From: Lachnospiraceae bacterium
GTDB taxonomy: Bacteria; Bacillota; Clostridia; Lachnospirales; Lachnospiraceae
Reading direction: 5' to 3'
DNA length: 49,915 bases
NCBI GenBank assembly: GCA_015057455.1
Contig: SVEH01000004.1
Span: 1 to 49,915 of the forward strand
The notes under the pieces are model-generated. The model ran no database searches, was not told where the DNA came from, and saw only the letters and a list, made by a program, of their open reading frames with translations. This document shows, piece after piece, positions 7,903 through 47,588 of the stretch (positions within the stretch are counted from its first letter, which is position 1; every line of letters starts with the position of its first letter). Made by a program: the position numbers and the translations under genes.

Positions 7903-7947
7903 GTATGACACAAGTATGACACAGGTATGACACAACGGTATGACACA
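7903..7947 (+). repeat. Four GTATGACACA direct repeats (probable integrase arm sites)
   Basis: Copies start at 7903, 7914, 7925 and 7938 (spacing 11, 11 and 13). Two more copies with 11-bp spacing lie at the other prophage end (43128 and 43139). Position near both cores, and next to int, fits arm-type binding sites of a tyrosine recombinase. Confidence 0.65.
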
Positions 7948-21669: not shown

Positions 21670-21764
21670 TGACAGAGTTTGGCAGAGCTTGTCAGTAAAT
21701 GACAGTGAATGGCAGAACTTGGCAGAGGTTGTCATTGAATGTCAGTAATAAGCTATGATATTAT
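21670..21764 (+). promoter_or_regulatory. Eight phased 10-bp repeats and late promoter
   Basis: Eight consecutive 10-bp units start at 21670, 21680, 21690, 21700, 21710, 21720, 21730 and 21740, each beginning TGNCA (TGACAG, TGGCAG, TGTCAG variants). The exact 10-bp period places every site on one face of the helix. A -10-like element (TATGAT 21754-21759 or TATTAT 21759-21764) follows directly. Interpreted as an activator array for the late promoter, read by the sigma-like protein encoded just upstream. Confidence 0.7.
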
Positions 21765-24793: not shown

Positions 24794-24814
24794 GATGAGA
24801 AAGAAGGTGAGGCA

Positions 24815-26059: not shown

Positions 26060-26061
26060 AA

Positions 26062-28096: not shown

Positions 28097-28137
28097 AATC
28101 CACAATAGAAGATACACCTAGTGTTGCAAGTCTGTCT

Positions 28138-28281
28138 ATGAATTATACTCAGGAAGAGCTTGAGAGTATGACTAAGGCAGAACTTACAACACTAGCTGAA
28201 GAAAATTCTATTGTGGTAAAAACTTCTTGGACTAAAGCTCAAATTATTGAGGCTATCCTAGGGGGTGATACTGTTGCCTAG
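28138..28281 (+). CDS. HeH/SAP-like small domain downstream of the capsid gene
   Basis: From ATG 28138, 47 residues with a helix-extension-helix pattern (YTQEELESMTKAELTTLAEEN, then SWTKAQIIEAIL), like the HeH/LEM or Rho-N modules often found next to capsid genes. The frame is open from 28084, in -1 phase relative to the capsid gene, and the ATG has no ribosome site. It may therefore be made as an extension of the capsid protein by slippage at GGGGG (28087-28091), or be the remains of a fused domain. Confidence 0.5.
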   Translation: MNYTQEELESMTKAELTTLAEENSIVVKTSWTKAQIIEAILGGDTVA

Positions 28282-28588
28282 TTTAGAAGAAATCAAAGAT
28301 TATTTGATGATAGATTTTGAAGATGAGGCTACAGATAGAACGCTTGAAAGACTTAAACGAACAGCTGATGTATACCTAAAAGGTATGATAGGAGAAGATT
28401 ATCCAGCTGATGACGAAAGAGCCAAGCAAGTAGCTTTATTGGTTATAGAAGATTTGTATGATAACAGAGGTATGAATGATAGAACATCTACCAACAGAAG
28501 GAAGATGATAGAAGATTTTGTATTGCAGCTCAAACTTGAATTAAGGAGGAAGAAAGATGATTCGTCCAATAATGATTCAGAAGCTTGA
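28274..28588 (+). CDS. Head-tail connector (gp6-like)
   Basis: 104 residues from TTG 28274, with AGGGGGTG 7 bases upstream. Pattern of gp6-like connectors: LEEIKDYLMIDFEDE, then RLKRTADVYLKGMIG and a C-terminal helix (VALLVIEDLYDNRG). It attaches below the portal. An alternative GTG at 28265 would overlap its own ribosome site. Confidence 0.8.
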   Translation: MPSLEEIKDYLMIDFEDEATDRTLERLKRTADVYLKGMIGEDYPADDERAKQVALLVIEDLYDNRGMNDRTSTNRRKMIEDFVLQLKLELRRKKDDSSNNDSEA

Positions 28589-28874
28589 TAAAGAAAGCAA
28601 AAAATGGATAAGTCTAAATAAGAAAATTCATGCCAATGTTAATAAAGCAAAAGATGGCTCACAATACTTATCATCTTCAAGTCAACAAAGTAGCGTTGTT
28701 AAAAAGTTTAGTATGAAATACTCTAAGGAGTTGTCAGATATTCAGTTTAAAAGAGCATCTTATCGAATTGTATTCGATGGTGTGATTTATAACATTGAGG
28801 ATTATGATGACTATCAAGAGGAACACATTACTATTCAATTACTGGGGGTGTCAAGTGGTGTCAGGTTCAATTGA
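28557..28874 (+). CDS. Head closure / head-tail adaptor protein
   Basis: 105 residues, beta-rich, with FKRASYRIVFDGVIYNIEDYDDY near the end, typical of head-tail joining proteins. It overlaps both neighbours. Ribosome site AAGGAGG. Confidence 0.75.
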   Translation: MIRPIMIQKLDKESKKWISLNKKIHANVNKAKDGSQYLSSSSQQSSVVKKFSMKYSKELSDIQFKRASYRIVFDGVIYNIEDYDDYQEEHITIQLLGVSSGVRFN

Positions 28875-29262
28875 TATCTCTGATTTAACAGATGAAATCG
28901 AAGATGTGCTATTGAGTTACAGTAAGAATATAACTGAAGCTCTTAACGAAGAGGGAGAAAAGTCTATCAAGGAATTAGTTAAAAGAACTAAAAAGGATGC
29001 ACCTGAGAATAAGAATTCTAAAGGTAAGCATTACAAGAAACAGATAGGATATAGCGTAGAACAAGGTTCTACGGCGAATAAAACTTATATAATGCATGTA
29101 AAAGGACCTAAGTACAGGCTAGCACATTTACTTAATGATGGACATCTTACAAGGAATGGAAAGAGAGTACCAGGAGATGAACACATAACGAAGAATGCAG
29201 AGGCTGTTTTAGCTCAGTACGAGGAAAGTGTTAAGGAGGCGATAGAACATGCAGGATATTAA
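28858..29262 (+). CDS. HK97 gp10-like tail component
   Basis: 134 residues from GTG 28858 (GGGGGTG 8 bases upstream; GTG 28855 also possible). Family features: an N-terminal helix, KRTKKDAPENKNSKGKHYKK, and RLAHLLNDGH near the middle. Tail assembly component between the connectors and the tail terminator. Confidence 0.8.
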   Translation: MSGSIDISDLTDEIEDVLLSYSKNITEALNEEGEKSIKELVKRTKKDAPENKNSKGKHYKKQIGYSVEQGSTANKTYIMHVKGPKYRLAHLLNDGHLTRNGKRVPGDEHITKNAEAVLAQYEESVKEAIEHAGY

Positions 29263-29584
29263 TTTAAAAGAATGGCTTAATTTATCAGGCATACCTTTTG
29301 AAGATACTCAGTGGCTAGAGACTCCAACAACAGAAGCATATGGCGTATATATAGATAAGCAACATAAGCGAGGAAGTGATACAAAACTACATATAGTCGA
29401 ACATGATTTAGAAGTAGAAGTATATACGGAATTCGCAGATAGAGATATCTTGGATAAGGTGGAAGCTTTGTTTATAGATAAAGGCTTAGAAATAGATACC
29501 ATACCTTTTACATACATAGAATCAGAGAGACTATTTATGTCTAAAATTTATTGTTATTATACAACAAAGTTAAGGAGGAATTAA
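29249..29584 (+). CDS. Tail terminator-like protein
   Basis: 111 residues, alpha/beta, in the position of tail terminator or completion proteins (gpU-like). It overlaps the preceding gene by 14 bases and ends 1 base before the major tail gene. Assignment rests mainly on position and size. Confidence 0.65.
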   Translation: MQDINLKEWLNLSGIPFEDTQWLETPTTEAYGVYIDKQHKRGSDTKLHIVEHDLEVEVYTEFADRDILDKVEALFIDKGLEIDTIPFTYIESERLFMSKIYCYYTTKLRRN

Positions 29585-29585
29585 G

Positions 29586-30161
29586 ATGGATAAAGAAAAT
29601 ATCTTATTAGGTGCTGTAGATGTGTACTATATGGAGTATACAGGAGAGTTGCCAGATGATGAAACAATTGAAGTACCTGAAAACTTACTTGGCGAGACAA
29701 GTGGTGGAACTACTATAGAGTACAAACCATCATATTATACAGCTAAGTCAGATTCAGGAAGGGCTACAAAAACAATACTTACTGATGAAGAAGCAACATT
29801 AAAGTCAGGAATCATGACCCTTAATGGAAAGAAACTTGCAGTATTATGCTCTACAGCAAGAGTAGAGGAAGATGGTAATATCAGAACTGTTAAGATAGGT
29901 GGAGTTAAGAACTACAATGGTAAGAAGTATGTTATTCATTGTGTACTTAATGACCCAGAAGCAGGAAAGAGTACTGTTACAATTGTTGGAACAAATGAGG
30001 CTGGATTCTCATTAGCATATCAAAAAGATAAAGAGACAGTTGTAGATGCTGAGTTTAAAGCTAATCCAGTAGATAATGAGGGAACACTTATTGTATACAA
30101 AGAAGCGTTAAGCACAGAATCAGAAGCAGGAGAGGAAGCAGGAGAGGAAGCACAAGGTTAA
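29586..30161 (+). CDS. Major tail tube protein
   Basis: 191 residues, beta-rich, with GAVDVYYMEYTG at the start and acidic linkers, typical of siphophage tube proteins. The C-terminus has duplicated AGEE units from a 12-bp repeat. A strong terminator follows the gene. Confidence 0.8.
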   Translation: MDKENILLGAVDVYYMEYTGELPDDETIEVPENLLGETSGGTTIEYKPSYYTAKSDSGRATKTILTDEEATLKSGIMTLNGKKLAVLCSTARVEEDGNIRTVKIGGVKNYNGKKYVIHCVLNDPEAGKSTVTIVGTNEAGFSLAYQKDKETVVDAEFKANPVDNEGTLIVYKEALSTESEAGEEAGEEAQG

Positions 30162-30178
30162 TATTCAAAATTATTAAT

Positions 30179-30215
30179 GAGAGGGGGCTATCAATTAGAT
30201 GCCCTCTCTTTTTTT
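30179..30215 (+). terminator. Terminator after the major tail gene
   Basis: GAGAGGG/CCCTCTC stem (30179-30185 with 30202-30208) and seven T residues. Partial termination here would make tube protein more abundant than the downstream tail proteins. Confidence 0.85.
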
Positions 30216-30232
30216 ATAGGAGGTAAAACATT

Positions 30233-30583
30233 ATGGCAAGAGCATTAGATTTTAGAACAGTAAAAAAGAAATTTCTAACAACATCTTTTAGAGATGGGAA
30301 CGTAATTTTAATTAGAAGTCCTAAGTTAGTTAATATAGAGAGTTTGATAGAATTATCAAATAAGTTTTCAAAGGCAAATAAAGATATTCAAAATGGAGAT
30401 ACAGATACTGATGATGTAAAAACTGTATATCAAATGTGCGCAGATATTATGAACAATAATATACAGAATAAAAAAATTACAATGGAATATCTAGGTAAAC
30501 AATTAGATATTGAAGATTTAACAATATTCTTTCAACAATACACAGAATTTGTAAGCGAGATTAATACCGTAGCAAAAAACTAG
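30233..30583 (+). CDS. Tail assembly chaperone (G-like)
   Basis: 116 residues, acidic and helical, in the place of the lambda gpG analogue between tube and tape measure. Its last codons contain the slippery heptamer A-AAA-AAC followed by the stop TAG, so a fraction of ribosomes would make a G-T fusion. Confidence 0.8.
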   Translation: MARALDFRTVKKKFLTTSFRDGNVILIRSPKLVNIESLIELSNKFSKANKDIQNGDTDTDDVKTVYQMCADIMNNNIQNKKITMEYLGKQLDIEDLTIFFQQYTEFVSEINTVAKN

Positions 30584-30619
30584 AAATCCCCTATTATCCA
30601 ATAAAGGATGAAGGGGATT
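30574..30619 (+). promoter_or_regulatory. Programmed -1 frameshift site with stimulatory stem-loop
   Basis: Slippery A-AAA-AAC (30574-30580) in the correct frame directly before the TAG stop. Four bases later a stem begins: AATCCCC (30585-30591) with GGGGATT (30613-30619), plus an inner ATCC/GGAT stem. This is the classic arrangement for -1 frameshifting. Confidence 0.85.
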
Positions 30620-30852
30620 CTATAGATTATGACATATATACTTATGAGAAACATATGGTTGCAGAATATGTAGGCATTCCTATGACGGAAGTAGGTGAAC
30701 TATATTACATAGATTACCTAGTATATCGTAGGGATGCCTTTATATATAATGCAAGTCAAACAAAGAAGGGAAGAGAATATCTAAGAAATGCCTACAGATT
30801 AACACAGACAAAACCAGATAGAGAGAAACTTAAGAGGTTTAAAAAAAGGTAG
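30580..30852 (+). CDS. T-domain of the tail assembly chaperone (frameshift extension)
   Basis: 90 codons in the -1 frame relative to the G-like gene, entered by slippage at 30574-30580. The joined protein would be about 206 residues. An internal ATG exists at 30655 but has no ribosome site. The Tyr-rich start and basic, helical end are typical of gpT-like domains that contact the tape measure protein, encoded 10 bases downstream. Confidence 0.8.
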   Translation, partial: LEIPYYPIKDEGDSIDYDIYTYEKHMVAEYVGIPMTEVGELYYIDYLVYRRDAFIYNASQTKKGREYLRNAYRLTQTKPDREKLKRFKKR

Positions 30853-30862
30853 GTGAATAATA

Positions 30863-33800
30863 ATGGGTACAAAAATAAAAGGTATTACAGTAGAAATAGG
30901 TGGAGATACTACCAAACTCGGCAAAGCCTTAGAAGATACAAATAGTAAAACTAAGAATTTGCAGTCGGAATTAAAGGGTGTTAATTCATTGTTAAAGATG
31001 GATCCAGGAAATATAACACTTCTTAATCAGAAACAAGATATACTGAATACCTCAATAGCGAATACTAGTGAAAAATTAGAACAGCTCAAGGGAGTACAAG
31101 AACAGGTACAAGAACAATTTGAAAAAGGAGAAATTGCAGAAGAAACATACAGAGATTTTCAAAGAGAAATTGTATCTACAGAACAAAAACTTGAAAGTTT
31201 GAATGAACAATTAAAAGAATTTGGTTCGGCTAATGCTCAAAAAATTGCTCAAGTAGGAGAAAAGTTTAAAGAAACAGGAGATAAAATATCAGGAGCAGGA
31301 GAAAAACTATTACCCTTAACAGCTGGGATTACAGCGGTAGCTGGCGCAGGCGTGGCAGCAGCTATGGAATTAGACGATGGCTATGATACTATTATTACTA
31401 AAACAGGAGCAACAGGAGAAGCGCTAGAAGGATTAAATGAGATAGCAGATAATGTATTCACAAAAATGCCTACGGATATGAATACAGTAGGTATAGCTGT
31501 TGGAGAAATTAATACTAGATTTGGCGCAACAGGAGATAAGTTAGAAGATTTATCACAGAAGTTTATTAAATTCTCTGAAATAAATAGCGTTGACCTTAAT
31601 AATTCTATAGGCATGGTTGATAAAATCATGGAACAATGGAATATAGATATGGCTGAGACAGATAATGTATTAGGACTTATCACTAAAAAAGGACAAGATA
31701 CAGGAATAAGTGTTGATGGGTTGATGGCTAGTGTGCAACAGAATGGCGCTACATTTAAAGAGATGGGCCTAAATATGACACAAGCTGTAGAACTATTAGC
31801 ACAGTTTGAAGCTAATGGTGTAAATGCTGAAGTAGCTATAGCTGGTTTAAGAAAGTCTACTAAGATATATACTGACCAAGGGAAGAGTACTGATGAGGCA
31901 CTAAAACTTACTATTGATAAAATAAAAAGCGCCAAGGATGAAACAAAAGCATTAGCGTTAGCGCAAGAGACATTCGGAACCAAGGGTGCAGCAGAAATAT
32001 CAAATGCAATTCGTGAAGGCAGAATAAATATAGATGATTTATCGAAGTCTATGAGTGACTACGGAACTGTTGTACAAGATACTTTTGATGCAACATTAGA
32101 TCCATGGGATGATTGTAAAGTTGCTATTAATAATCTTAAGTCAGCCGCATCAGAATTAGGTCAAACATTGCTTGCATCATTGAAACCAGTATCAGAATCA
32201 GTTGTGAATAGTATAAAGACCTTTACAACATGGTTTAAAGATTTATCACCAACAATGCAAAATACCATATTAATAATTGCTGGAGTAGTCGCAGCTATAG
32301 GACCTCTGTTAATTATAATTGGGAAAATTATAACGGCAGTTGGAAGTATAATGACAATTATCCCAACTTTAGTTTCAGCGTTTAATGTTGTAAAGGGTGC
32401 ATTTGCATCGCTCAACGCAGTTATTGCAGCTAACCCAATTATATTAATAGTTGGAGCGATAGCAGCACTGGTTGCAGCGTTTATATATTTATGGAATAAC
32501 TGTGAAGCCTTTAAGAATTTTTGGATAAATTTATGGGAGAATATTAAATCTGTAACAGTATCAGTTGTTGAAGGGGTGAAGACATTCTTTACAGAGAATT
32601 GGCAAGCACTCTTGTTGCTAATTGTAAATCCGTTCGCAGGAGCATTTAAATTACTATATGATAATTGCGAAAGCTTTAGAAATTTTGTTAATTCTTTTAT
32701 AGAAAATATAAAACAATTTTTCATAAATGGAGCAAACAATATTGTTGCATTTTTTACAAAGACTATACCATCACTTATTAATTCTATAGTAAAATGGTTC
32801 AACGAATTACCGACTAAAATAGGTTATGCGCTAGGTTACGTTCTAGGGAAAATAGTGAAATTTGGTGCAGATGCTATTAATTGGGTACAAGTAAATGTGC
32901 CTAAGATAATTAATAGTATAGTTACATTCTTCAAAGAGTTACCAGGAAAAGTATGGACTTGGTTGTCTAATACCATTACCAAAGTAACAACTTGGGGTGT
33001 GAACATGACAACCAAAGCCATATCTATTGGTAAAAATTTCATTACAAATGTCATTAATAATATCAAGGAATTACCTTCAAAACTCGCAACATGGTTCACT
33101 AATACAGCGACTAAGGTTGTTGAATTTGGAAATAATCTCAAGAAAAAAGGAATTGAGGCAGGTAAGAAATTATTAACATCTGTTTCAGAAGGAGTTAAAG
33201 AACTTCCAAATAAGATGGCTAGTGTCGGAAAAAATATAGTAGAAGGTGTATGGAATGGTATTAAGAATGCAAAAGATAAGTTTATGAAGGATATAAAGAA
33301 TTTCTTTAATGGAATAGTAGATGGAGCCAAGGAAGCACTAGATATACATAGTCCTTCAAGACGAGGAGAAAAAGAAGTCGGTGAGGAATTTGGTAATGGT
33401 GTTATCAAAGGTGTGAAGAATAAGTACAAGACTGCAAAGAAGACATCAGCAGAACTTGGTCAAATATTATTAGATACTGCTAAGACTAAGCTTGAGGAAT
33501 ACAAGAAGTATAATGATATGTCATTAACATCAGAGATAGCATATTGGCAGAAGATACTTGCATCTACCAAGAAGGGTACGCAAGCATATAAAGATGTAAA
33601 TCTTGAATTAAAAACACTTAAAGCAGACCTTAATAAACAGTTACAAGATTTAGATAAGTCTTATGCTGAGAGCGTGACTAAAGTCAAGGAGACATTGATA
33701 AAAGATATTCAAGCAGTATCAGATAAGTATGATAGCGCTATTGCATCCAGGGCAAGTGCAATAACATCATCGATGAAATTATTTGATGAATTCACTTCTA

Positions 33801-34576
33801 CAACAGATAAGACATCTGAAGATTTGCTTAATAATTTACAATCTCAAGTAGATGGATTAACACATTGGGATGAATTATTAGATCAATTAGAAGCTAGAAA
33901 TGGAATGAATGACGAGTTATTGGCAGAACTTCAAAATATAGGCCCTAGTGCTATTGCTGATTTAGAGAATATAGTAGCTATGACTGATGAACAGTTTGAA
34001 CAATATGTTGCATTATGGACAAATAAGCAGCAGATAGCTGACGAAAGAGCTGTGCAAGAATATCAAGAATATCGTCTGGAATGCGAAAATGAAGTGAGAG
34101 AACTTGTAAAGACAGCCAACACAGAATTGAATACACTTGAAAAAGAGTACTTTAATTCGCTTAAAGAATTAGGAGTAAGTGTAGCTGATGAGAGTGTGAG
34201 CATAGGTAAAAAGATAGTTGAAAGTCTTAAAAGTGGTGTTGAATCAGAAAGAGAAGAATTTAGCACATATCTTACATCGTTCTTTAATCAGATTATAAGT
34301 ACTGCTAAGAATTCATTAAAGATTAGCGCTGCAGTGAATGATATTGCAAATACAGTAGGAATTGGAGTTGGAAATGCTGTAAGTGCAGCAACAGCTAACC
34401 TTATAGAACTTAAGCAAGTTCAGCAGTCAGAGCTACTATTAGCTGGAGGAAATGGAACATCTGTAACAAATAACAATGTTAAAAATGAAGTGAATATTAA
34501 TACTCAGTCAGTAGATAAGAACAACATAGATGTCATAGTGGATGAGATTAATAGAAAATTAGGTGATAAATATTAA
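30863..34576 (+). CDS. Tail tape measure protein
   Basis: 1237 residues, the longest gene in the window. N-terminal coiled coil (~1-130), a TP901-type core (~165-400), a hydrophobic block (~465-545) that may enter the host membrane during DNA ejection, Trp-containing helical repeats with KELPxK-type units (~640-800), and a long C-terminal coiled coil. It sets tail length and is packed inside the tube. No lysozyme or peptidase domain was recognised. Confidence 0.93.
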   Translation: MGTKIKGITVEIGGDTTKLGKALEDTNSKTKNLQSELKGVNSLLKMDPGNITLLNQKQDILNTSIANTSEKLEQLKGVQEQVQEQFEKGEIAEETYRDFQREIVSTEQKLESLNEQLKEFGSANAQKIAQVGEKFKETGDKISGAGEKLLPLTAGITAVAGAGVAAAMELDDGYDTIITKTGATGEALEGLNEIADNVFTKMPTDMNTVGIAVGEINTRFGATGDKLEDLSQKFIKFSEINSVDLNNSIGMVDKIMEQWNIDMAETDNVLGLITKKGQDTGISVDGLMASVQQNGATFKEMGLNMTQAVELLAQFEANGVNAEVAIAGLRKSTKIYTDQGKSTDEALKLTIDKIKSAKDETKALALAQETFGTKGAAEISNAIREGRINIDDLSKSMSDYGTVVQDTFDATLDPWDDCKVAINNLKSAASELGQTLLASLKPVSESVVNSIKTFTTWFKDLSPTMQNTILIIAGVVAAIGPLLIIIGKIITAVGSIMTIIPTLVSAFNVVKGAFASLNAVIAANPIILIVGAIAALVAAFIYLWNNCEAFKNFWINLWENIKSVTVSVVEGVKTFFTENWQALLLLIVNPFAGAFKLLYDNCESFRNFVNSFIENIKQFFINGANNIVAFFTKTIPSLINSIVKWFNELPTKIGYALGYVLGKIVKFGADAINWVQVNVPKIINSIVTFFKELPGKVWTWLSNTITKVTTWGVNMTTKAISIGKNFITNVINNIKELPSKLATWFTNTATKVVEFGNNLKKKGIEAGKKLLTSVSEGVKELPNKMASVGKNIVEGVWNGIKNAKDKFMKDIKNFFNGIVDGAKEALDIHSPSRRGEKEVGEEFGNGVIKGVKNKYKTAKKTSAELGQILLDTAKTKLEEYKKYNDMSLTSEIAYWQKILASTKKGTQAYKDVNLELKTLKADLNKQLQDLDKSYAESVTKVKETLIKDIQAVSDKYDSAIASRASAITSSMKLFDEFTSTTDKTSEDLLNNLQSQVDGLTHWDELLDQLEARNGMNDELLAELQNIGPSAIADLENIVAMTDEQFEQYVALWTNKQQIADERAVQEYQEYRLECENEVRELVKTANTELNTLEKEYFNSLKELGVSVADESVSIGKKIVESLKSGVESEREEFSTYLTSFFNQIISTAKNSLKISAAVNDIANTVGIGVGNAVSAATANLIELKQVQQSELLLAGGNGTSVTNNNVKNEVNINTQSVDKNNIDVIVDEINRKLGDKY

Positions 34577-34593
34577 GACAAGGAGATGGAAAA

Positions 34594-35442
34594 GTGAGTA
34601 AGTTTTATATTGAAAATGAAAAAGGCGAACGTATCGATTTGCAAGATGATGAAAAGTATTGTTTAGCTGAAAACATAAAAGGACTTGGCTTGAATATTAA
34701 TAACACCTATACACATGTAGGAGATTATTTCACAAATGATTCTACAGAGGATACACAAAAGGTAATTGAATTTGATGCTAACTTCTTCTTTACGGGAGGA
34801 GTTAGCGCTTTTGACAAAGAACAAATAGTATCAGATTTTTTAGTAAGAGCTGATAGATTATATTTTGTTTATATCCCAGAAAGAGAAGAAGAAGCTGAGT
34901 ATAGATGCGAGGTAGAATTAGGTGCTTACACACAAGGATATAAAGATGGTTTTTTAAGTTATCCTGTTAAACTAAATGCTATAACTTTATTCTACGAAGA
35001 TAACATAGTTACGCTTGATGTTGATAGGACAGCAGGAGAAAAGAGATACACTTTTAATTATGCAGCAACATATAACGATTATGAAAGTAGAAGTGTTGAA
35101 ATTAAACCAGGTAATCAAGTTGATGTAGCATTTGATTTAGAAATATATGGCTATACAGCTAATCCAGGATTTGATATATACGAAAACGAGATTAAAGTAA
35201 AGAGTATGACATTCCCAGTTGTCGTAGAAGAAGGACAAAAGATATTTTACTCTTCAAGAGATGCAGACTTAAGGGTACAACTTATAGATGAAAATGGCGT
35301 TGCAACGAATTTATTTGATAAATTTAATGCCGATGAAGAAATATTCTACAAGCTAAACAAGAATGGATCCACGATTAAGTTTAGAACTGGTGGAGCTAAT
35401 AAAATATTATTTACTCCATATAAATACTTAAAGGTGGTGTAA
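34594..35442 (+). CDS. Distal tail protein (Dit-like)
   Basis: 282 residues, GTG start with AAGGAGATGG upstream. Beta-rich, with the N-terminal Dit pattern (a short strand, GLGLNI, then EFDANFFFTGG) and a C-terminal galectin-like part. Forms the hub joining tube to the adsorption apparatus. Confidence 0.8.
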   Translation: MSKFYIENEKGERIDLQDDEKYCLAENIKGLGLNINNTYTHVGDYFTNDSTEDTQKVIEFDANFFFTGGVSAFDKEQIVSDFLVRADRLYFVYIPEREEEAEYRCEVELGAYTQGYKDGFLSYPVKLNAITLFYEDNIVTLDVDRTAGEKRYTFNYAATYNDYESRSVEIKPGNQVDVAFDLEIYGYTANPGFDIYENEIKVKSMTFPVVVEEGQKIFYSSRDADLRVQLIDENGVATNLFDKFNADEEIFYKLNKNGSTIKFRTGGANKILFTPYKYLKVV

Positions 35443-35443
35443 A

Positions 35444-36505
35444 ATGAGCAAAGTATATTTTTTAGATAAAGAAAATTTAAAAGTGAAGAATATATTAGAT
35501 TCAACATCTTATAGCATAGAAAAGACAAGTGAGTCAGCTGGAAAATCTAGTGTAGAACTTCATAAAAAACCTTTTGATAATGATAATGAGGAATGCATTG
35601 TATTTATCAGAGATAAGAAAGAAGAGTTGTTTGTATTAGGAACTATAGATAAAACTAATACCAATGCCGAGAGCTGCAAAGTCTCGTTAAAAGAAATAAA
35701 TACTATATTTGATAGAAAAATAATATTATCAAATGAGAACATTAAGGCAGATACAGGTATAGAAGATTTTATAGCTAATCAAATAACTAGCAACTTTATT
35801 TTGAACCCAGATGCATCACTTAACTATAGCTATTTAGAAGTTAATGTATTAACACATACCGTAGTTCACGCAGCAGTTGAAAATGATAAAGGCATATATA
35901 ACTTAATGACTTACATCGATAATGCCAGGGAAAACTACGGCATATTTCTAGATTTTAAATGTGTTAAAGATAAATTGGTTATAGATATATCTAATAAGAG
36001 TAAAGAAAAAGAACTGAGTATAAATACAAGCTACGATATAGTATCGTGCGAGGAAGTATACTCTACAACTGTACTAGCAACATTACAAGTGTTATGGGCG
36101 AAATCTGAAGATGATACTAATCCTACGATTAAAAATTATTATTTACTTAATGATAGAACAATTGGTACAGATATGGACGATGTGAATCGTGCTAAAGGAA
36201 CCATAGATACAGTAAGAATAGTAGCAGAAACAGAAGAGGCATTATGGGAAGAAGTACAAAAAAGTTTTACAGCGAATTCATACGAGCATAGCATTACAGC
36301 TAAAATAAAGATAAGCAGTAGTATATATGACACTACTGCTTTTTATATTGGTAAAAAATGCAAGGTAAAAACTAGCAAAGGTATAAGAGAAAGTATGATA
36401 ACTAATATTTCCTATAACGATAAGTCAAAATATATGACTGTAAAATTTGGCAAGATGCCAATTACATTTATAGAAAAACTCAGAAAGGAGAGAAAAGAAC
36501 AATGA
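35444..36505 (+). CDS. Tail-associated / baseplate hub protein (Tal-like)
   Basis: 353 residues, beta-rich, in the position of the Tal/gp27-like hub between Dit and the receptor-binding protein. It has no C-terminal hydrolase extension. ATGA overlap with the DGR target gene shows tight co-expression. Confidence 0.7.
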   Translation: MSKVYFLDKENLKVKNILDSTSYSIEKTSESAGKSSVELHKKPFDNDNEECIVFIRDKKEELFVLGTIDKTNTNAESCKVSLKEINTIFDRKIILSNENIKADTGIEDFIANQITSNFILNPDASLNYSYLEVNVLTHTVVHAAVENDKGIYNLMTYIDNARENYGIFLDFKCVKDKLVIDISNKSKEKELSINTSYDIVSCEEVYSTTVLATLQVLWAKSEDDTNPTIKNYYLLNDRTIGTDMDDVNRAKGTIDTVRIVAETEEALWEEVQKSFTANSYEHSITAKIKISSSIYDTTAFYIGKKCKVKTSKGIRESMITNISYNDKSKYMTVKFGKMPITFIEKLRKERKEQ

Positions 36506-38118
36506 GTATAAGAGCAGTTACATTTAATGAACAGGCGTGTAAATCAGAGGATGATGCTTTAATACATGACCTATTCTTAAATAATCATTGTGGACCTATA
36601 AAAGGCTGTGAGTTATCTTATGATACGAATACAATAACAGTTGGACAAGGTTATTTTATGATAGCAGGACGATTAGTTCATATAAATGGAAACGAGGTTA
36701 TAGAACCAACACCTGTTGAAAACGGAACCAAATATTGCAAGTTGATATTCAGTTTAGATATGACTAAGGAGAATACTGCAAAAGATTTTAAACAAGGTAA
36801 ATTTGAGGTGATAGGAAACTATGACACTTACCCTGATACAACTCAAGAAGACCTACATAACGGAGGAACTACATATCAATTAGAAGTATGTAAGTTTACA
36901 TTAACACCAGAAGGTATAACAAGTCATGAGAATATATGGTATCCAGTAGAGATAAATGGAGTTGTTGCATACGCAAAAAAAGAAGTAGATGCTATGATAG
37001 CAGAATATGAAGCTGAATGTGATGAAATTATTAAAAATGCGTCAATGCCAGTATCACATATACATGAAGTAGTAACCTCAGACCAAGGAGTACATGGTTT
37101 ACGTTACAACGGAACATTATTTGAGACATACAACCAAGATACACAAGAATGGGAAACAGCCGCAGGAGGACTACCTCCTAGACCAGTTACGGAAATATTA
37201 GCTATTAACGGAACAACTAAAGTAGATATTATGTGGAATGAGCCTAATATATATGATGTTCAAATTAGTGGATATAATGTGTATGTAGCACATGCATCAG
37301 CAAAACCTACAGATATATCACAATTCAACCTACTAACAACAATTCAAACAACGACATATACATATACAACAGATTCGCCAAGCAATTGTTATGTATTAAT
37401 AACACCTATAAGCACTACAGGAATAGAGAATACAGATATAAGTTATATAACACCAGTTATCACAGCACCTACATTTAGTTCAGCATCGTGGTCTGTTATA
37501 GACATGTTAGAAAAGAAAGATAAACTATCGACTTATTTTTCTGTTGGAGATATAAAGACAATAACTATAGGTGGGGTGAGTCAACAAATAGCAATACATG
37601 GTTTCAAACATGATGATTTGTCAGATGGAACAGGAAAAGCTAAGATGACATTAGGACTAGTAAATTGCTTACCAACTACATATGCTATGAACAGCTCAGA
37701 TACAAATGTTGGTGGATGGACTGGTTCAAAGATGTATTCAACATTAAATGAAGCAATATTTGGTGACTTGCCAGAAGAACTTAAAGATTTGATAAAACCT
37801 GTTAAGAAAAAAACGTCAGCGGGTAACCAACTGACAACCATTAATACATCAAATGATAAGTTGTTTTTATTTAGCGAACACGAAATATTTGGCGCAAAGA
37901 CATATTCAGTAGGAAGCGAAGGAAAACAGTATTCATTATTTGCTACAAGTAGTAATAGAATTAAGAAGTTAGGAGATTCTGGTTCGGCCACTCACTGGTG
38001 GGAGCGTTCTCCATTTGCGAGTGACGCCACTACCTTTTGTCGTGTCAGCTCTTCGGGTGCGGCTAACTGTAGCAGCGCTGGCATCACTCTTGGCGTTTGT
38101 TTCGGCTTCTGTATCTAA
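36502..38118 (+). CDS. DGR-diversified receptor-binding (tail fibre-like) protein
   Basis: 538 residues. The N-terminal ~150 form a tail-attachment domain. A short helix (~155-180) and a fibronectin-III-like domain (~223-318) follow. A C-terminal domain from ~343 matches DUF6273-like C-type-lectin folds (WWERSP motif). Residues 493-538 are encoded by the variable repeat. Compared with the template, 11 of 12 Asn codons have become His, Phe, Asp, Thr, Arg, Ser, Cys, Ser, Ser, Ile and Leu. The scaffold residues (WWERSP, GVCFGF) are unchanged. Inferred role: binding the host surface with a tunable tip. Confidence 0.9.
   Translation: MSIRAVTFNEQACKSEDDALIHDLFLNNHCGPIKGCELSYDTNTITVGQGYFMIAGRLVHINGNEVIEPTPVENGTKYCKLIFSLDMTKENTAKDFKQGKFEVIGNYDTYPDTTQEDLHNGGTTYQLEVCKFTLTPEGITSHENIWYPVEINGVVAYAKKEVDAMIAEYEAECDEIIKNASMPVSHIHEVVTSDQGVHGLRYNGTLFETYNQDTQEWETAAGGLPPRPVTEILAINGTTKVDIMWNEPNIYDVQISGYNVYVAHASAKPTDISQFNLLTTIQTTTYTYTTDSPSNCYVLITPISTTGIENTDISYITPVITAPTFSSASWSVIDMLEKKDKLSTYFSVGDIKTITIGGVSQQIAIHGFKHDDLSDGTGKAKMTLGLVNCLPTTYAMNSSDTNVGGWTGSKMYSTLNEAIFGDLPEELKDLIKPVKKKTSAGNQLTTINTSNDKLFLFSEHEIFGAKTYSVGSEGKQYSLFATSSNRIKKLGDSGSATHWWERSPFASDATTFCRVSSSGAANCSSAGITLGVCFGFCI
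37978..38113 (+). repeat. DGR variable repeat (VR)
   Basis: 136 bp, aligned without gaps to the template repeat 621 bp downstream. Eighteen differences, all at template adenines (to G, C or T); the other 102 positions are identical. The invariant GGCGTTTGTTTCGG near its 3' end is the likely start of the IMH (initiation of mutagenic homing) element. Confidence 0.95.
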
Positions 38119-38129
38119 AATCTTATAAT

Positions 38130-38148
38130 CTGCGACCTTGTGTCGCAG
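38130..38148. other. DGR target-site hairpin / cruciform
   Basis: Perfect 7-bp GC-rich stem CTGCGAC/GTCGCAG with a 5-base loop, 17 bp after the variable repeat and outside the gene. In the Bordetella phage DGR a similar structure just after the VR is needed for efficient retrohoming. The AT-rich surroundings make it stand out. Confidence 0.8.
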
Positions 38149-38170
38149 TACAAAAGAAAGGTTGAAAGAT

Positions 38171-38569
38171 ATGTCAGTTTTAGCAAGTAAAAGAGAAGAA
38201 AGCTCGGTACAATTTTTGGATAATGCAATAGACTTACATGTCTATACATTAAAAAGATGTACGAACTTTCCTAAAAGATATATGTTTTTTATTACAAAAG
38301 GAATTGTAGATTTATCTAAAGAGTGTTTGAATTGTGTTAAAGCAGCAAATAGTATATATCCTAAAAATGAGCATGAATTACAAATGAGAAGAGACTATTT
38401 TATAAGAGCAAATGCATGTGTTCAAAATTTATACACTCATATAGATATAGCAAAGAACACATTTCCTATTGAAGATAAAAAGATAATTGAATGGATTAGA
38501 ATTCTAAGAGAAGAAGAAAGATTGATTAAAGGCGTAATGAAATCTGATTCAAAGAATTTTAAATTTTAA
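38171..38569 (+). CDS. avd: DGR accessory variability determinant (Avd)
   Basis: 132 residues from ATG 38171 (GAAAGG about 9 bases upstream). Small, basic, all-helical protein with the four-helix-bundle pattern of Avd: SVQFLDNAIDLHVYTLKRC, FPKRYMFFITKGIVDLSKE, YFIRANACVQNLYTHIDIA. It should form a barrel-shaped pentamer that binds the RT and RNA. Located between VR and template, as expected. Confidence 0.85.
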   Translation: MSVLASKREESSVQFLDNAIDLHVYTLKRCTNFPKRYMFFITKGIVDLSKECLNCVKAANSIYPKNEHELQMRRDYFIRANACVQNLYTHIDIAKNTFPIEDKKIIEWIRILREEERLIKGVMKSDSKNFKF

Positions 38570-38598
38570 AACAATAAATATTAGGTTATGAGTTATCG

Positions 38599-38734
38599 TC
38601 TGGTTCGGCCACTAACTGGTGGGAGCGTTCTCCAAATGCGAGTAACGCCACTAACTTTTGTAATGTCAACTCTTCGGGTGCGGCTAACAATAACAACGCT
38701 AGCAACACTAATGGCGTTTGTTTCGGATTCAGTA
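38599..38734 (+). repeat. DGR template repeat (TR)
   Basis: 136 bp, 30 bp after avd. It contains 34 adenines, most of them in 12 AAY (Asn) codons when read in the VR frame. AAY codons cannot mutate to stop codons by adenine changes, so the template is built for safe diversity. It is the source of the RNA copied with A-errors into the variable repeat. Confidence 0.95.
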
Positions 38735-38956
38735 CAATAAATATTCAGACAAAGTAACTATAGTGAAATCAGAATAAAAGTACAGAAGGAATTCATAACC
38801 TTCCTTAGAAAATGAAAGGTAAATAAGTGTGGTGATATGATTAGTCGGACGCTACTTGCATGGAACTGAACTGATGCATCATAAGTTTTACATGGCTATT
38901 ATCATTATGCAGTTAGAGGATGCATCAATTAACTGTACGCTGCACAAGAAGAAATA
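38599..38956 (+). ncRNA. DGR template-spacer RNA region
   Basis: Noncoding stretch from the template to the RT gene. The 220-base spacer holds structured elements: GAAGGAATTC and ACCTTCC pairing near 38785-38803, a palindrome TGATGCATCA (38871-38880) and a second GATGCATCA (38918-38926). In known DGRs the RNA just after TR primes cDNA synthesis and binds RT-Avd. Exact ends unknown. Confidence 0.6.
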
Positions 38957-40084
38957 ATGAATAGTAAAGATAGACATGAAGCAAGATATCAAAGAAGAAA
39001 ACAAAAGAGATTAGAGAAGAAAAGAATACTTCAAGAACAATATGGAGATTTTGACAAGGTATTTACTTTCAATAATTTATACAACGCATTTAGCAAATGC
39101 AAAAAAGGTGTTATGTGGAAGAGTAGCACAAAGAAATATAGAGCAAATCTTTTAAGAAACACGCATGAACTATATGCTCAATTAAAAGATGCAACATATA
39201 GAAGTAAAGGTTTTTATGAATTTGACATAATAGAAAGAGGTAAACACAGACATATAAGAAGTGTACATATATCGGAACGTGTAGTTCAAAGAACATTATG
39301 TGATGAATCAATAATACCTTTATTAGAAAGAAGTCTAATATATGATAATGGGGCAAGCGTAAAGGATAAAGGTGTGGACTTTGCTATTAGAAGATTAGAA
39401 ACCCAACTTCATAGACACTACAGAAAGTATGGTAACGAAGGTTATATCTTACAATATGATTTTAAAAGCTACTTTGATAACATAAACCATGAAGAAGTGT
39501 TCAAAATATTGAAGAATATCTATACAGATAAAAAGTTGTTAGGTTTATCTATGATGTTTATTAAAAATTTTGGAAATAAAGGACTAGGATTAGGTTCACA
39601 AGTATCTCAAATAATGGCAATAGCAGTTCCTAATAAAGTAGATCATTATATAAAAGAACAATTAGGAATAAAAGGATATGGAAGGTATATGGATGATGGA
39701 TACTTAATACATCATAGTAAGGAATATCTAAAATATTGTCTAGTAGAAATGAGAAAGATGCTTAATGAATTAGGAATTAAATTAAACGAAAAGAAAACTC
39801 AAATAGTGAAATTATCGCATGGTTTTACATTTTTGAAAACAAAGTTTAATTTACTAAAGTCTGGGAAAGTTCTAAGAAGACCTACTAGAAAAGGTATAAG
39901 AATAATGAGGAGAAAGTTAAAGAAATTAAAAAAGAAAGGGTTAGGATATGAAGTGGCCAGAATATCAATGAATTCTTGGTTAGGACATGTTCAAAGGTGT
40001 AGTTCATATAAGACAAGACAAAATATGAAAAAATTATTTAATCAATTATACATTGATGAATGGAAAGGAGAAGTATATGTATAA
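38957..40084 (+). CDS. DGR reverse transcriptase
   Basis: 375 residues. RT palm motifs: QYDFKSYFDN (Asp168) and YMDD (244-247) carry the catalytic aspartates. The DGR-specific LGSQVSQ (212-218) replaces the QG...SP of group II intron RTs. No endonuclease or maturase domain is present, and the basic C-terminus (KKLKKKGLG) fits RNA binding. It copies the template RNA with frequent errors at adenines; the cDNA then replaces the variable repeat. Confidence 0.95.
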   Translation: MNSKDRHEARYQRRKQKRLEKKRILQEQYGDFDKVFTFNNLYNAFSKCKKGVMWKSSTKKYRANLLRNTHELYAQLKDATYRSKGFYEFDIIERGKHRHIRSVHISERVVQRTLCDESIIPLLERSLIYDNGASVKDKGVDFAIRRLETQLHRHYRKYGNEGYILQYDFKSYFDNINHEEVFKILKNIYTDKKLLGLSMMFIKNFGNKGLGLGSQVSQIMAIAVPNKVDHYIKEQLGIKGYGRYMDDGYLIHHSKEYLKYCLVEMRKMLNELGIKLNEKKTQIVKLSHGFTFLKTKFNLLKSGKVLRRPTRKGIRIMRRKLKKLKKKGLGYEVARISMNSWLGHVQRCSSYKTRQNMKKLFNQLYIDEWKGEVYV

Positions 40085-40388
40085 AGTTACAAAAGTATCA
40101 GACAACACAAGCACTGTTCGTAATGAGATAAAAATAATAAAAGAACAGGAAAATGGAGCAGTAGTTCTTATTAAAGAACTAGAGGAAGCGCAAGGAATAA
40201 TAGCACCAGACAATGAAACAATATACGCTATTCAAGGAAGAGGTTGGGATAATAAATACGAAGTAGTAACTATCGAAGAAATAACAACAGAAGATTACTT
40301 AATTCAAATCAGTAACCAACTAAATGAAACAACAGAGAACCAATTAACAATGATGGAGGCAATAGCAGATTTATATGAATCAAGATAA
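40077..40388 (+). CDS. Small phage protein after the DGR
   Basis: 103 residues from ATG 40077 (AAAGGAG upstream), overlapping the RT end by 8 bases. Two beta-rich stretches, then a helix with QLNETTENQLTMMEAIADLYE, like short proteins after tail-fibre genes in clostridial phages. Function unknown; coupling to the RT suggests it is part of the tail-tip module. Confidence 0.55.
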   Translation: MYKVTKVSDNTSTVRNEIKIIKEQENGAVVLIKELEEAQGIIAPDNETIYAIQGRGWDNKYEVVTIEEITTEDYLIQISNQLNETTENQLTMMEAIADLYESR

Positions 40389-40401
40389 GCGAGGTGATAG
40401 T

Positions 40402-40509
40402 ATGCTAAAAGTATATATTAAGTTAGTACAAACAGGTAGAAGAACAATTGAATCTATCCCAGTTGATTATAGAGAACAAGTAAGGTTGGCGATAGAGGGT
40501 GAACAGTAG
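40402..40509 (+). CDS. CD1375-type small phage protein
   Basis: 35 residues: MLKVYIKLVQTGRRTIE, then IPVDYREQVRLAIE. This pattern matches the short CD1375-like proteins found between tail and lysis genes in clostridial phages. Ribosome site GAGGTGATAG. Confidence 0.6.
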   Translation: MLKVYIKLVQTGRRTIESIPVDYREQVRLAIEGEQ

Positions 40510-40657
40510 GATAATTGAAGTTATAACAGAATACGAAGATACAATACAAAATTTAGTTAAAGCAAATCATGCTTTAATAGAAGAAAATGAACAATTAAAA
40601 GCAATACTAAAAGAAGATGTAAATAACACATCTTCTTTTTTAGTGGAAAGAAGGTAA
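40499..40657 (+). CDS. Possible small coiled-coil protein
   Basis: 52 residues from GTG 40499, overlapping the previous gene. Helical, with LIEENEQLKAILKED. A strong terminator lies inside its last codons and the ribosome site is weak, so translation is uncertain. Confidence 0.35.
   Translation: MNSRIIEVITEYEDTIQNLVKANHALIEENEQLKAILKEDVNNTSSFLVERR
40609..40641 (+). terminator. Terminator between tail/DGR and lysis modules
   Basis: Perfect 12-bp stem AAAAGAAGATGT/ACATCTTCTTTT with a 7-base loop and a T-run. It separates the DGR region from the holin gene. Confidence 0.85.
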
Positions 40658-40658
40658 A

Positions 40659-41090
40659 ATGAAAAAACAGATATGTATAGGTATCGGAACTATTGGAAGT
40701 TTTCTTATTAAATTAGTAGGAGGTTGGGATTCACTTATGCAGACATTATTAATATTTATGATAATTGACTATGTAAGCGGGTGGACAGTTGCTGCAGTAT
40801 TCCAAAATTCGACTAAAACACAAAATGGAGGCTTGGAAAGTAAAGCGGGATTAAAAGGCTTGATTAAAAAATGTATGATATTACTTTTGGTAGTAGCGAT
40901 GCAATGTGTAGATGTTGCATTAAAATGCGATTATATTCGCAATGCAGCAATTATAGGATTTGCAGCAAATGAACTTATATCAATAGTAGAGAATGCAAAA
41001 CTAATGGGGATTCCAATGCCAAAAGTAGTCTATAAAGCAATTGATGTTATGAATGAAAAGGAGAAGAAGAATTATGAACAGAAGTATTAA
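40659..41090 (+). CDS. Holin (phage holin_4_1 / TcdE-like family)
   Basis: 143 residues. Hydrophobic segments at about 5-20, 27-47, 72-90 and 95-112, with DYVSGWTVA and SKAGLKGLIKKC typical of this holin family. It makes the membrane pore that lets the endolysin out. First gene of the lysis cassette. Confidence 0.88.
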   Translation: MKKQICIGIGTIGSFLIKLVGGWDSLMQTLLIFMIIDYVSGWTVAAVFQNSTKTQNGGLESKAGLKGLIKKCMILLLVVAMQCVDVALKCDYIRNAAIIGFAANELISIVENAKLMGIPMPKVVYKAIDVMNEKEKKNYEQKY

Positions 41091-41622
41091 ATTAGGATTA
41101 ATTATATTTATTAGTATAGTTTTAGTGATGTTGCTAGGAGTATTTACTGTACAAGGTTCGCAAAATAAAGCTATAGCATTAGAGGAACAAGTCAACACAG
41201 CATCATCGGATATTAAGGTTCAAGAAAAAAGAAGAGTTGACCTGGTCTATAATTTGGCAGACTGTGTGAAACAATACGACAAGCATGAGGCACAAACATT
41301 AAAAGATATAGTAAAAGGAAGAAATAAGTCGAGTAATATAGAAAATGTAAGTACAGCTATAACAGCAGTTACAGAAGCGTATCCTGAATTGAAATCTAAC
41401 GAGAACTATAAAGAATTAATGAATGAATTGGCCATAACAGAAAATCTAATAGCAGAGTATCGAAGTAATTATAATGCACAAATAAAAGAATACAACAGAT
41501 ATATTAGAAAGTTTCCATCAAGATTTTATTTAAGCTTAGTTGGATATGATGCACAAAATTATACATATTTAAATTATGATGCACCACCTGATGCACCACA
41601 AGACTTGTTTGGAAAGGAATAA
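41074..41622 (+). CDS. LemA family membrane-anchored protein
   Basis: 182 residues from ATG 41074 (AAGGAGAAG upstream), overlapping holin by 17 bases. One N-terminal membrane segment (~7-29), then a LemA-type helical bundle: VDLVYNLADCVKQYDKHE, LIAEYRSNYNAQIKEYNRYI, FPSRFYLSLVGY. LemA proteins are normally chromosomal; this one sits between holin and endolysin. Function unknown; envelope stress or lysis timing are guesses. Confidence 0.8.
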   Translation: MNRSIKLGLIIFISIVLVMLLGVFTVQGSQNKAIALEEQVNTASSDIKVQEKRRVDLVYNLADCVKQYDKHEAQTLKDIVKGRNKSSNIENVSTAITAVTEAYPELKSNENYKELMNELAITENLIAEYRSNYNAQIKEYNRYIRKFPSRFYLSLVGYDAQNYTYLNYDAPPDAPQDLFGKE

Positions 41623-41625
41623 GAA

Positions 41626-42348
41626 ATGAAAGATATTGAAATTACTAAAAGAGAAGTAATAGCCAGTATATCTATAGTAGCTATTATGTTGATTATTGGA
41701 GTAATTATATCAACGAAGTTATCTGAGAATGCTATGGATAAAAATGAAAAATATAATAAGGCTATTAATATAGAAGAAACTGAAATATTTAAATATGGAA
41801 TGAGAACTGATGTGGGTAATGCATTTGTGTATGGAGAACTTAAAGCAGTAGATCCAGTAACATATGATGAAATAGGTGAAAAGTATATGTATATTAAAAA
41901 AGTAAAAGAAAAATATACACAACACACCAGAGTTGTTACATATAGGAGTGGAGGACACACCAGAACAAGAACTGAGACATACTGGTCTTGGGATAAAGTA
42001 GGAACAGAATCTAAGAAATGTAAGAAAATAATGTTTTGCAATGTGGAATTCAACAGTAACAAAATAGAAATACCAAGTGCAGAATTTATAAAAACAATTA
42101 AAGAATCATATTTCATTAGATACAAGTATTATGGTACCAGTGTAAAAAGCACTGGTACCATTTTTACAAAATTAAAAAAGAATACCATATCTAATAGTAG
42201 TAGATTCTATGAAAATAAGAAGATACAGGAAACGAAGGAACTAGTGAAAGATAAACACTCAAATATAATTTTTTGGGTATTTTGGATAATATTAACAGTT
42301 GTTATAGTGTTTGGATTCTATTACCTAGAAAATGAATGGTTAGAGTAA
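41626..42348 (+). CDS. Membrane protein paired with the LemA-like gene
   Basis: 240 residues, 3 bases after the LemA-like gene. One membrane segment near the N-terminus (~12-31) and one near the C-terminus (~215-234), with a ~180-residue Tyr/Thr/Lys-rich domain between them that probably faces outside. It contains VVTYRSGGHTRTRTETYWSW. Its coding sequence includes a terminator-like hairpin at 42131-42165. Family not recognised; likely partner of the LemA-like protein. Confidence 0.65.
   Translation: MKDIEITKREVIASISIVAIMLIIGVIISTKLSENAMDKNEKYNKAINIEETEIFKYGMRTDVGNAFVYGELKAVDPVTYDEIGEKYMYIKKVKEKYTQHTRVVTYRSGGHTRTRTETYWSWDKVGTESKKCKKIMFCNVEFNSNKIEIPSAEFIKTIKESYFIRYKYYGTSVKSTGTIFTKLKKNTISNSSRFYENKKIQETKELVKDKHSNIIFWVFWIILTVVIVFGFYYLENEWLE
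42131..42165 (+). terminator. Intragenic terminator-like hairpin
   Basis: Perfect 12-bp stem ATGGTACCAGTG/CACTGGTACCAT (42131-42142 with 42150-42161) with five T residues, inside the coding sequence of the LemA partner. It may lower endolysin expression until late. Confidence 0.6.
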
Positions 42349-42365
42349 AGAAAGGTTGTGATTTA

Positions 42366-42974
42366 ATGAAAACAAATACAGCAGGAATAAAATTAATTCA
42401 GTCATTTGAAAGTTGTAAGTTAAAAGCGTATAAGGCAGTAGCTACAGAAAAATATTATACAATAGGTTGGGGGCATTATGGCCAAGATGTCTCAAAGGAT
42501 GAAGAGTGGACCCAGGAACAAGCAGATAATCAATTCGAGAAAGATTTAGTAAAGTATGAAAACTATGTAAATAAGTATGTAGACATAAAGTTGAATGAAA
42601 ATCAATTTAGTGCATTAGTATCTTTTTGTTATAATTGTGGACAAGCTAATCTTAAGAAACTAGTTAAAGATAGAAATACAGAAGAAATAGCTGATGCTAT
42701 GCCATTGTATAACAAGAGTGGTGGTAAAGTATACAATGGATTAGTGAGACGAAGAAAAGCAGAAGTTGCATTATTTAATAAATCTGTAGCTGATACATAT
42801 GAAGTAAAGACAACAGCTAGATTAAATATAAGAAAAGGTGCAGGAAAGAAATATGCAAAAGTAGGTTTATATGAAAAAAATCAAACCGTTGAAATACTAA
42901 GCGTTAGTAATTCAAAATTATGGGGGTTAACGAATAAAGGTTGGATATGCTTAGAGTACACTAAGAAGATATAA
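42366..42974 (+). CDS. Endolysin: GH24 lysozyme with C-terminal SH3 domain
   Basis: 202 residues from ATG 42366 (AAAGG upstream). Catalytic Glu15 in SFESCKLKAY and Thr32 in YYTIGWGHYG fit the T4-lysozyme-like GH24 site; NENQFSALVSFCYNCG is the second family motif. The C-terminal ~55 residues form an SH3b-type wall-binding domain (LNIRKGAGKKYAK, ending GWICLEY). It cuts peptidoglycan after holin opens the membrane. No signal peptide. Confidence 0.92.
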   Translation: MKTNTAGIKLIQSFESCKLKAYKAVATEKYYTIGWGHYGQDVSKDEEWTQEQADNQFEKDLVKYENYVNKYVDIKLNENQFSALVSFCYNCGQANLKKLVKDRNTEEIADAMPLYNKSGGKVYNGLVRRRKAEVALFNKSVADTYEVKTTARLNIRKGAGKKYAKVGLYEKNQTVEILSVSNSKLWGLTNKGWICLEYTKKI

Positions 42975-43127: not shown

Positions 43128-43148
43128 GTATGACACAAGTATGACACA
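43128..43148 (+). repeat. Two GTATGACACA arm-type repeats at the right end
   Basis: Copies at 43128-43137 and 43139-43148, the same sequence and 11-bp spacing as at the left end. Each is followed by AAAAAG(A/C)C as at the last left copy, so the two ends share about 20 bp of arrangement. Confidence 0.65.
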
Positions 43149-46994: not shown

Positions 46995-47588
46995 ATGAAA
47001 GTAAATGCAGCAGGTATTAAATTAATTAAAACCTATATGAGAGAGTATGGTTATGTTAAGGGAGGATTATCCTATGATGCAATTGATGTGTGGGATAGTG
47101 CGGAGTGCGAGCAGCAGCGTAAGGAAGAATTTGAGAAGAAATTTGATGAGGAAATTGCTCGTTATAGTGTTTATGTAATGAGATTTTGCGAATTTGAGGC
47201 TAATGAAAATCAATTTAGTGCTTTAGTAAGTTTTGGGTATAATAATGGGGTAATTAATCTTAAAAAATTGCTTTCTGGTAAGACAGCTATCGATGTGTCT
47301 AATGATATTCTTAAGTTCATTAAAGTCAATGATAAAATCCAAAAGAATCTTGTAAAATTAAGAAAAGAAGAGAAGAAATTATTTGATAAACCAGTTGATA
47401 CGTCTTATGCTGTGCGTTTAATGGATACAAAGACAAGTGTGCGTAAAGGTGCTGGAAAAAAATATGATAAAACAGGTAGCGTGTTCAAAAAGGGAGAGAT
47501 TGTGAAAATTTTAAAAACTAATAGTGCTAAAACCTATGGTTTAACTAACATGGGATGGGTGTCACTAAAATATGCTATAAAAGTGTGA
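46995..47588 (+). CDS. Catalytically dead GH24 lysozyme-like protein with SH3 domain
   Basis: 197 residues, clearly homologous to the prophage endolysin: same start (MKVNAAGIKLI), NENQFSALVSFGYNNG near the middle and a C-terminal SH3 part with SVRKGAGKKYDK and NMGWVSLKY. The catalytic Glu15 position (SFES) is now TYMR, and TIGWGH is replaced by an acidic DVWDSAE stretch, so lysozyme activity should be lost. It lies outside the prophage with its own promoter and ribosome site (AAGGAG), so it looks retained, perhaps as a wall-binding or decoy protein. Confidence 0.75.
   Translation: MKVNAAGIKLIKTYMREYGYVKGGLSYDAIDVWDSAECEQQRKEEFEKKFDEEIARYSVYVMRFCEFEANENQFSALVSFGYNNGVINLKKLLSGKTAIDVSNDILKFIKVNDKIQKNLVKLRKEEKKLFDKPVDTSYAVRLMDTKTSVRKGAGKKYDKTGSVFKKGEIVKILKTNSAKTYGLTNMGWVSLKYAIKV

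Follow-up and report, generated by a model that had tools for sequence, protein, structure and literature searches.

What is a reverse transcriptase (RT) doing behind the tail genes of a phage integrated in a Lachnospiraceae genome, and does the cassette that encodes it still work? The question is raised by DNA of a Lachnospiraceae bacterium (assembly GCA_015057455.1, contig SVEH01000004.1, positions 1–49,915 of the forward strand), which was analysed over its full 49,915 nucleotides and is called the window here. At 36502–40084 on the plus strand it contains every part of a diversity-generating retroelement (DGR), in the order target gene with variable repeat (VR), hairpin, avd, template repeat (TR), spacer RNA and RT gene; all parts that a first-pass annotation had named within a prophage tail module were found in that place and order. 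We hold with high confidence that this is the DGR of an integrated phage, very probably active in the recent past, with a predicted mechanism like that of Bordetella phage BPP-1 and likely sampling receptor-binding surfaces.

All parts of the cassette lie on the plus strand. The target gene (36502–38118) encodes 538 amino acids, matches DUF6273 (E 3.8e-16) and carries at its 3′ end the VR (37980–38112), which stops 6 bases ahead of the end of the stop codon. There follow the hairpin (38130–38148); avd (accessory variability determinant, 38171–38569), whose 132-residue product is predicted to be a four-helix protein and matches PHROG 3206, “Avd protein of DGR” (E 2.8e-11); the TR (38601–38733), which holds 12 AAY codons in the frame of the VR; a spacer RNA (38740–38965) matching the Rfam family RT-2 (RF03077) over model positions 1–222 of 222, with 115.9 bits at a gathering score of 40; and the RT gene (38957–40084). 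The RT, of 375 amino acids, is of the DGR type (PHROG 1423, E 8.9e-81; RVT_1, E 1.6e-18) and has both the LGSQVSQ and the YMDD motif read from it in the first pass; the residues G213, S214, S217, Q218 and Y244–D247, invariant across 15 aligned sequences, are kept. A promoter scan of the cassette found 19 promoters where 20.3 were expected, that is, no signal. In its own genome (43 contigs totalling 2.82 Mb, completeness 93.7%) the RT has one match, and a DNA search of that genome for a second target or a second TR found none at E 0.001, leaving one TR and one VR.

VR and TR align over 133 columns without a gap, with 18 of the 33 template adenines changed (seven to G, six to T, five to C) and none of the 100 other bases; were the mismatches placed at random, the chance of all 18 landing on template adenines would be 1.3e-13. 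The repeats look foreign in composition, because their G+C content (VR 56%, TR 47%) differs from the 31% of the window.

A second DNA allele is provided by a public viral record (IMGVR_UViG_3300024303_004333; 24,872 bp), which aligns gap-free to window positions 20316–45187 and differs from it at 18 bases, one at 20441 and 17 within the VR, while TR, avd, spacer RNA and RT are identical. The first-pass annotation had proposed that its reading would fall if the VRs of related strains were identical to each other or had changed beyond the adenines of the template; in this near-clone all 17 VR differences are at template adenines. The pair is a natural DGR record of unusual clarity, with 17 changes in the VR and one elsewhere in 24.9 kb. 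A DNA pattern search of viral contigs for the exact element turned up a single record, that of locus L002. As to the suggestion that this element may be undescribed, it is borne out in so far as no near-identical phage was found in the phage collection (near mode, window 23000–42000; near records of the own genome were possibly excluded), but the RT itself has very many relatives (in a protein search 4579 of the 7999 scored candidates matched).

The protein homologues of the target, of which 195 were found and the six closest (P0001–P0006) compared, show the same concentration of change. P0001 has no difference in the 493 residues before the VR and six in the 45 residues of the VR (Fisher 2.5e-7); P0002 to P0006, which probably carry TRs of their own, differ at 12, 12, 13, 12 and 15 of the 45 VR residues and at 14, 15, 14, 17 and 21 of the 493 residues outside it, respectively. 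Across the eight alleles (window, near-clone and P0001–P0006) each of the 12 AAY codons of the TR varies, and so do four of the 33 other codons (497, 520, 527 and 529). The AAC codon of residue 508 (window 38023) stands apart from the remaining AAY codons: none of the eight alleles has anything but Asp or Asn there, and selection may restrict it. Because 17 of the 18 changes of the near-clone lie at template adenines of the VR, and those of the six homologues are likewise concentrated in the VR, the cassette very probably worked recently.

How it would work can be drawn by analogy with BPP-1. TR and RT-2-type spacer RNA would be transcribed together; the RT, with Avd, would bind the spacer and copy the TR into cDNA, misincorporating opposite its adenines; this cDNA would then take the place of the VR in the 3′-terminal part of the tail-protein gene. 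One-way transfer would be ensured by the 3′ edge, at which the VR reads GCTT and the TR GATT, together with the hairpin that follows the VR. As the 12 AAY codons fall in what is predicted to be a C-type-lectin-like tip, the phage likely tries out new surfaces for receptor binding; the virus, in other words, likely keeps changing what it can attach to, and its host range may change as well.

The alternative that survives best, though we consider it unlikely, accepts a diversified target but not a receptor-binding tip: the protein would bind something else, such as mucus or debris of the host, a role suggested for the second targets in certain gut phage DGRs. The target consists of a tail-protein-like N-terminus, an FN3 domain at about residues 222–322 and a DUF6273/C-type-lectin-like C-terminus that includes the VR. 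Its N-terminus matches a solved “receptor-binding protein” (30yz_W, E 1.3e-5) in sequence; this weak match, limited to the N-terminus, is where the named receptor-binding protein resembles the target, which leaves room for another ligand. The C-type-lectin-like fold of the C-terminus is a structure prediction, the lectin-like match coming from the VIA second look; the solved fold nearest to the diversified domain (residues 323–538) is 9qa6, a lectin-like domain at the N-terminus of an IgA peptidase from a gut bacterium. When the whole target was compared with the PDB by Foldseek, mostly FN3 domains were returned, and no known DGR variable protein was among the best 50 matches; the matches listed from the viral library are many DUF6273 phage proteins, along with some named receptor-binding proteins. 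Moreover, phages with two DGR targets, as described in the accessible parts of two reports (PMC11792537, PMC10743442), indicate that not every target has to be the tip. Against this stand the single target in the own genome and the position of its gene, directly 3′ of the genes for the tape measure protein (30863–34576, plus strand; PHROG 1272, E 1.9e-157), the distal tail protein Dit (34594–35442, plus strand; Dit_N, E 6.5e-15) and a further tail protein (35444–36505, plus strand; PHROG 7064, E 3.9e-13), the last of which overlaps the start of the target by 4 bases. That the phage rewrites its receptor-binding tip, as the first pass had it, gains support from the tail module, the N-terminal match and the predicted lectin-like C-terminus.

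Considerably less probable is that the cassette was once active but is now silent in its host, the two VR alleles being older variants swapped by homologous recombination between related phages. P0001 could be taken to speak for such an exchange: it is a mosaic in which, of VR residues 494–538 (window 37981–38115), residues 517–538 are as in the window and the differences are confined to 498–516. If a whole VR were replaced from its 3′ edge onward, a patch limited to the 5′ part would not be expected. Recombination, however, has to account for a near-clone with just one other differing base in 24,872, which requires a donor patch of about 100 bases that brought no flanking differences and was adenine-only twice, and every part of the machinery is intact; recent activity of the DGR is therefore preferred. 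A third alternative, in which the RT is that of a group II intron or a retron and the repeat a coincidence, has next to no probability. Weaker matches to other kinds of RT are indeed common in genomes of the family, but this alternative is excluded by the adenine pattern of TR and VR (18 of 18 mismatches), the near-clone, the PHROG matches, the Avd gene and RT-2 RNA lying in between, and the best solved match of the RT: 8ub7_A, which we take to be the BPP-1 enzyme, has E 1.1e-21, where a group II maturase has 6.3e-13.

The association of RT-2 with this type of cassette extends beyond the window. The RNA was found in 47 of 71 further loci (by batch 6 of 14, 4 of 20, 18 of 18 and 19 of 19, the last two batches making up 37 of 39 TR-distinct viral loci); the loci lacking it mostly have RTs no more than about 40% identical, with L054 (49%) and L056 (44%, at a contig end) as exceptions. 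Where its position was measured, in 42 loci, RT-2 starts 3–65 nt past the end of the TR homology (median 8, at most 15 nt in 36 of the 42) and ends between 19 nt beyond and 89 nt ahead of the start of the RT match. From this occurrence and from its position between the two, RT-2 is the TR–RT spacer of this DGR lineage; the survey thereby puts a curated RNA family into the TR–RT spacer of the window and 47 of the 71 further loci. In BPP-1 the spacer is described as recruiting RT–Avd and priming cDNA synthesis (PMC12875486, in part), and by analogy the RT-2 spacer may do both here. No report of RT-2 as a DGR spacer was found in the literature searched, whose coverage was partial, so that an earlier description is possible and the negative is weak evidence of novelty.

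How such elements distinguish VR from TR is still incompletely understood, as far as the accessible text of the same paper goes (PMC12875486), and the sequence rules that can be read from relatives of the window bear on it. The probable initiation of mutagenic homing (IMH) site of the window, to which that role is assigned from its position, is 38106–38110 on the plus strand, where the VR has C at 38106 and T at 38110 opposite the TR adenines 38727 and 38731; both VR bases are the same in the near-clone and thus fixed across the two DNA alleles, so that IMH and IMH* differ. The GC-rich hairpin which the first pass had placed between VR and avd is present, with a 7-bp stem, a 5-nt loop and the sequence AATC ahead of it; its region folds as DNA with −8.4 kcal/mol over 71 nt (z −2.40; 2 of 200 shuffles did as well). 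Its loop, CTTGT, departs from the BPP-1 model, since BPP-1-like targets are reported to have a hairpin with a 4-nt GRNA loop (PMC3240598, in part).

The idea of a target site of this kind arose from the window, 18 relatives and BPP-1, and was followed in a survey of 110 loci (79 of 80 viral loci, 30 earlier loci and the window). TR and VR were found in 87 and not in the other 23, for some owing to a nearby contig end; the 87 gave 61 distinct TRs, loci that had suggested the idea included. With the edge site picked by the letters of the TR only, as its last GAT, the opposite VR base was C in 34, T in four and A in one of 39 loci, the other 22 having no GAT; among changed adenines further upstream C was found in 152 of 905 (Fisher 1.8e-20 against 34 of 39). 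A GC-rich hairpin followed the VR in 52 of 61 loci, where shuffles averaged 2.7 and reached at most 6, and the TR in four of 61, where they averaged 2.5 and reached at most 7. AATC stood within 14 nt 5′ of 33 of the 52 hairpins (an earlier count was 31 of 49, where shuffles averaged 4.4); the loop was of the type CT(N)1–2GT in 26, on 19 different inner stems, and GRNA in none, the BPP-1 control giving GAAA.

For a hold-out, 80 loci were taken, of which 63 had not been named before. Removal of 12 that had DNA in common with loci already used left 51; of these, 41 had TR and VR, with 35 distinct TRs. The edge base was C in 26 and T in three of 29 (six without GAT), at an upstream C count of 100 of 541; the hairpin followed the VR in 33 of 35 (1.9 in shuffles, at most 4) and the TR in five of 35 (1.2 in shuffles, at most 5), with AATC in 25, CT(N)1–2GT in eight and GRNA in two of the 33. 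Polarity base, hairpin and AATC box hold up in the hold-out; the CT(N)1–2GT loop, noticed post hoc and weaker there, is mainly a trait of closer relatives. In both sets the loci were made distinct by TR, and the statistics ignore phylogeny. Frame assignments put the edge site in codon phase 3 in 43 cases, phase 2 in five and phase 1 in four; as it falls in more than one phase the base bias is not purely a protein constraint, although part of it may be coding, since one phase dominates. Whether these features add up to a DNA target code for retrohoming that is the lineage's own and distinct from BPP-1 (the polarity base in GATT of the TR and GCTT of the VR, the AATC box before the hairpin and, in nearer members, the CT(N)1–2GT loop, working with RT-2 as RT-loading spacer) we judge evenly balanced. 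Edge, AATC and loop motifs were likewise not found reported in the literature searched; given its partial coverage, with an earlier description possible, this is weak evidence of novelty, and the target-site details of the lineage are possibly new.

The surrounding phage begins with an integrase and a repressor-like gene, followed by small and large terminase, portal and capsid genes, then by the tail module that ends in the DGR target; holin and endolysin genes lie 3′ of the RT. The integrase gene (7982–9085, minus strand; Phage_integrase, E 1.6e-16; PHROG 1) is adjoined by an ion-channel-like gene (9352–10059, minus strand) that matches PHROG 7872, a phage family of unknown function. The candidate ends of the prophage are the two copies of a 21-bp direct repeat on the plus strand, 7903–7923 on the left and 43128–43148 on the right. 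They are part of 10-bp repeats and could alternatively be integrase arm sites, and no empty attachment site was seen for the 21-bp repeat. As the record of the near-clone extends beyond the right repeat into the flanking genes, the near-clone seems to be chromosomal too. For two genes for methyl-accepting chemotaxis proteins 3′ of the right repeat the possibility of phage cargo was weighed and dropped, these being probable host genes with seven matches in the own genome, and with matches in 114 of 200 genomes searched (the own genome counted; at genus level the source genome was the sole member). Two related lysozyme genes (42336–42974 and 46995–47588) flank the right repeat and these chemotaxis-receptor genes, and the second may be the remnant of an older prophage. 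Inside the tailed prophage are also a rolling-circle-type replication initiator (12712–13551; REP_ORF2-G2P; PHROG 3584) and, upstream of the small terminase gene, an array of 10-bp TGNCAG-type repeats (21670–21756), which may serve in packaging or regulation.

Known DGRs number in the tens of thousands. With that of BPP-1 (NC_005357.1) the window shares the order target(VR)–avd–TR–RT, a phage tail target, repeats of about 134 bp and a hairpin after the VR; the two differ in the hairpin (loop GAAA on an 8-bp stem in BPP-1, CTTGT on 7 bp here) and in the TR–RT spacer (144 nt from the coordinates in BPP-1, 223 nt with an RT-2 match here), and their RTs are only distantly alike, with 8ub7_A taken as the BPP-1 enzyme. 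The closest annotated phage RT, with 49.4% identity over 92%, is that of Roseburia phage Shimadzu (LR596903.1), which likewise has the order tail fibre(VR)–Avd–TR–RT, a change from GAT in the TR to GCT in the VR and a hairpin loop, CTCGT, of the CT(N)GT type. However, Shimadzu has genes for a P2-like contractile tail whereas the window encodes a tape measure/Dit tail, and it is reported, in what is accessible of PMC11792537, to diversify two proteins instead of one. The DGRs of a Faecalibacterium prophage and of the gut phages nd4/nd12 resemble the window in belonging to gut-type phages with DUF6273-like or C-lec targets (PMC11792537, PMC10743442, in part), but their RTs are less than 40% identical to that of the window in the best rows, and in tentaclins the C-lec domain is N-terminal where in the window target it is C-terminal. 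Archaeal DUSEL4 DGRs already offer an example of an IMH/IMH* pair specific to a lineage (TGGGGT/TGGAAT) and of a constrained loop, which there, as far as PMC4372165 is accessible, is a GRA triloop inside the target gene, unlike the CTTGT hairpin after the stop codon here. In the global survey of Roux et al. 2021 (PMC8144416, in part), 31,007 metagenomic DGRs include phage clades with tail targets and with C-Lec VRs at the C-terminus, and recent activity is indicated for 50–75% per group. The window agrees with these phage DGRs in its tail target, in a C-terminal VR in a predicted C-Lec fold, in adenine-only mismatches and in signs of recent activity; it fits their picture and is therefore a further DGR of a familiar type, not a new class.

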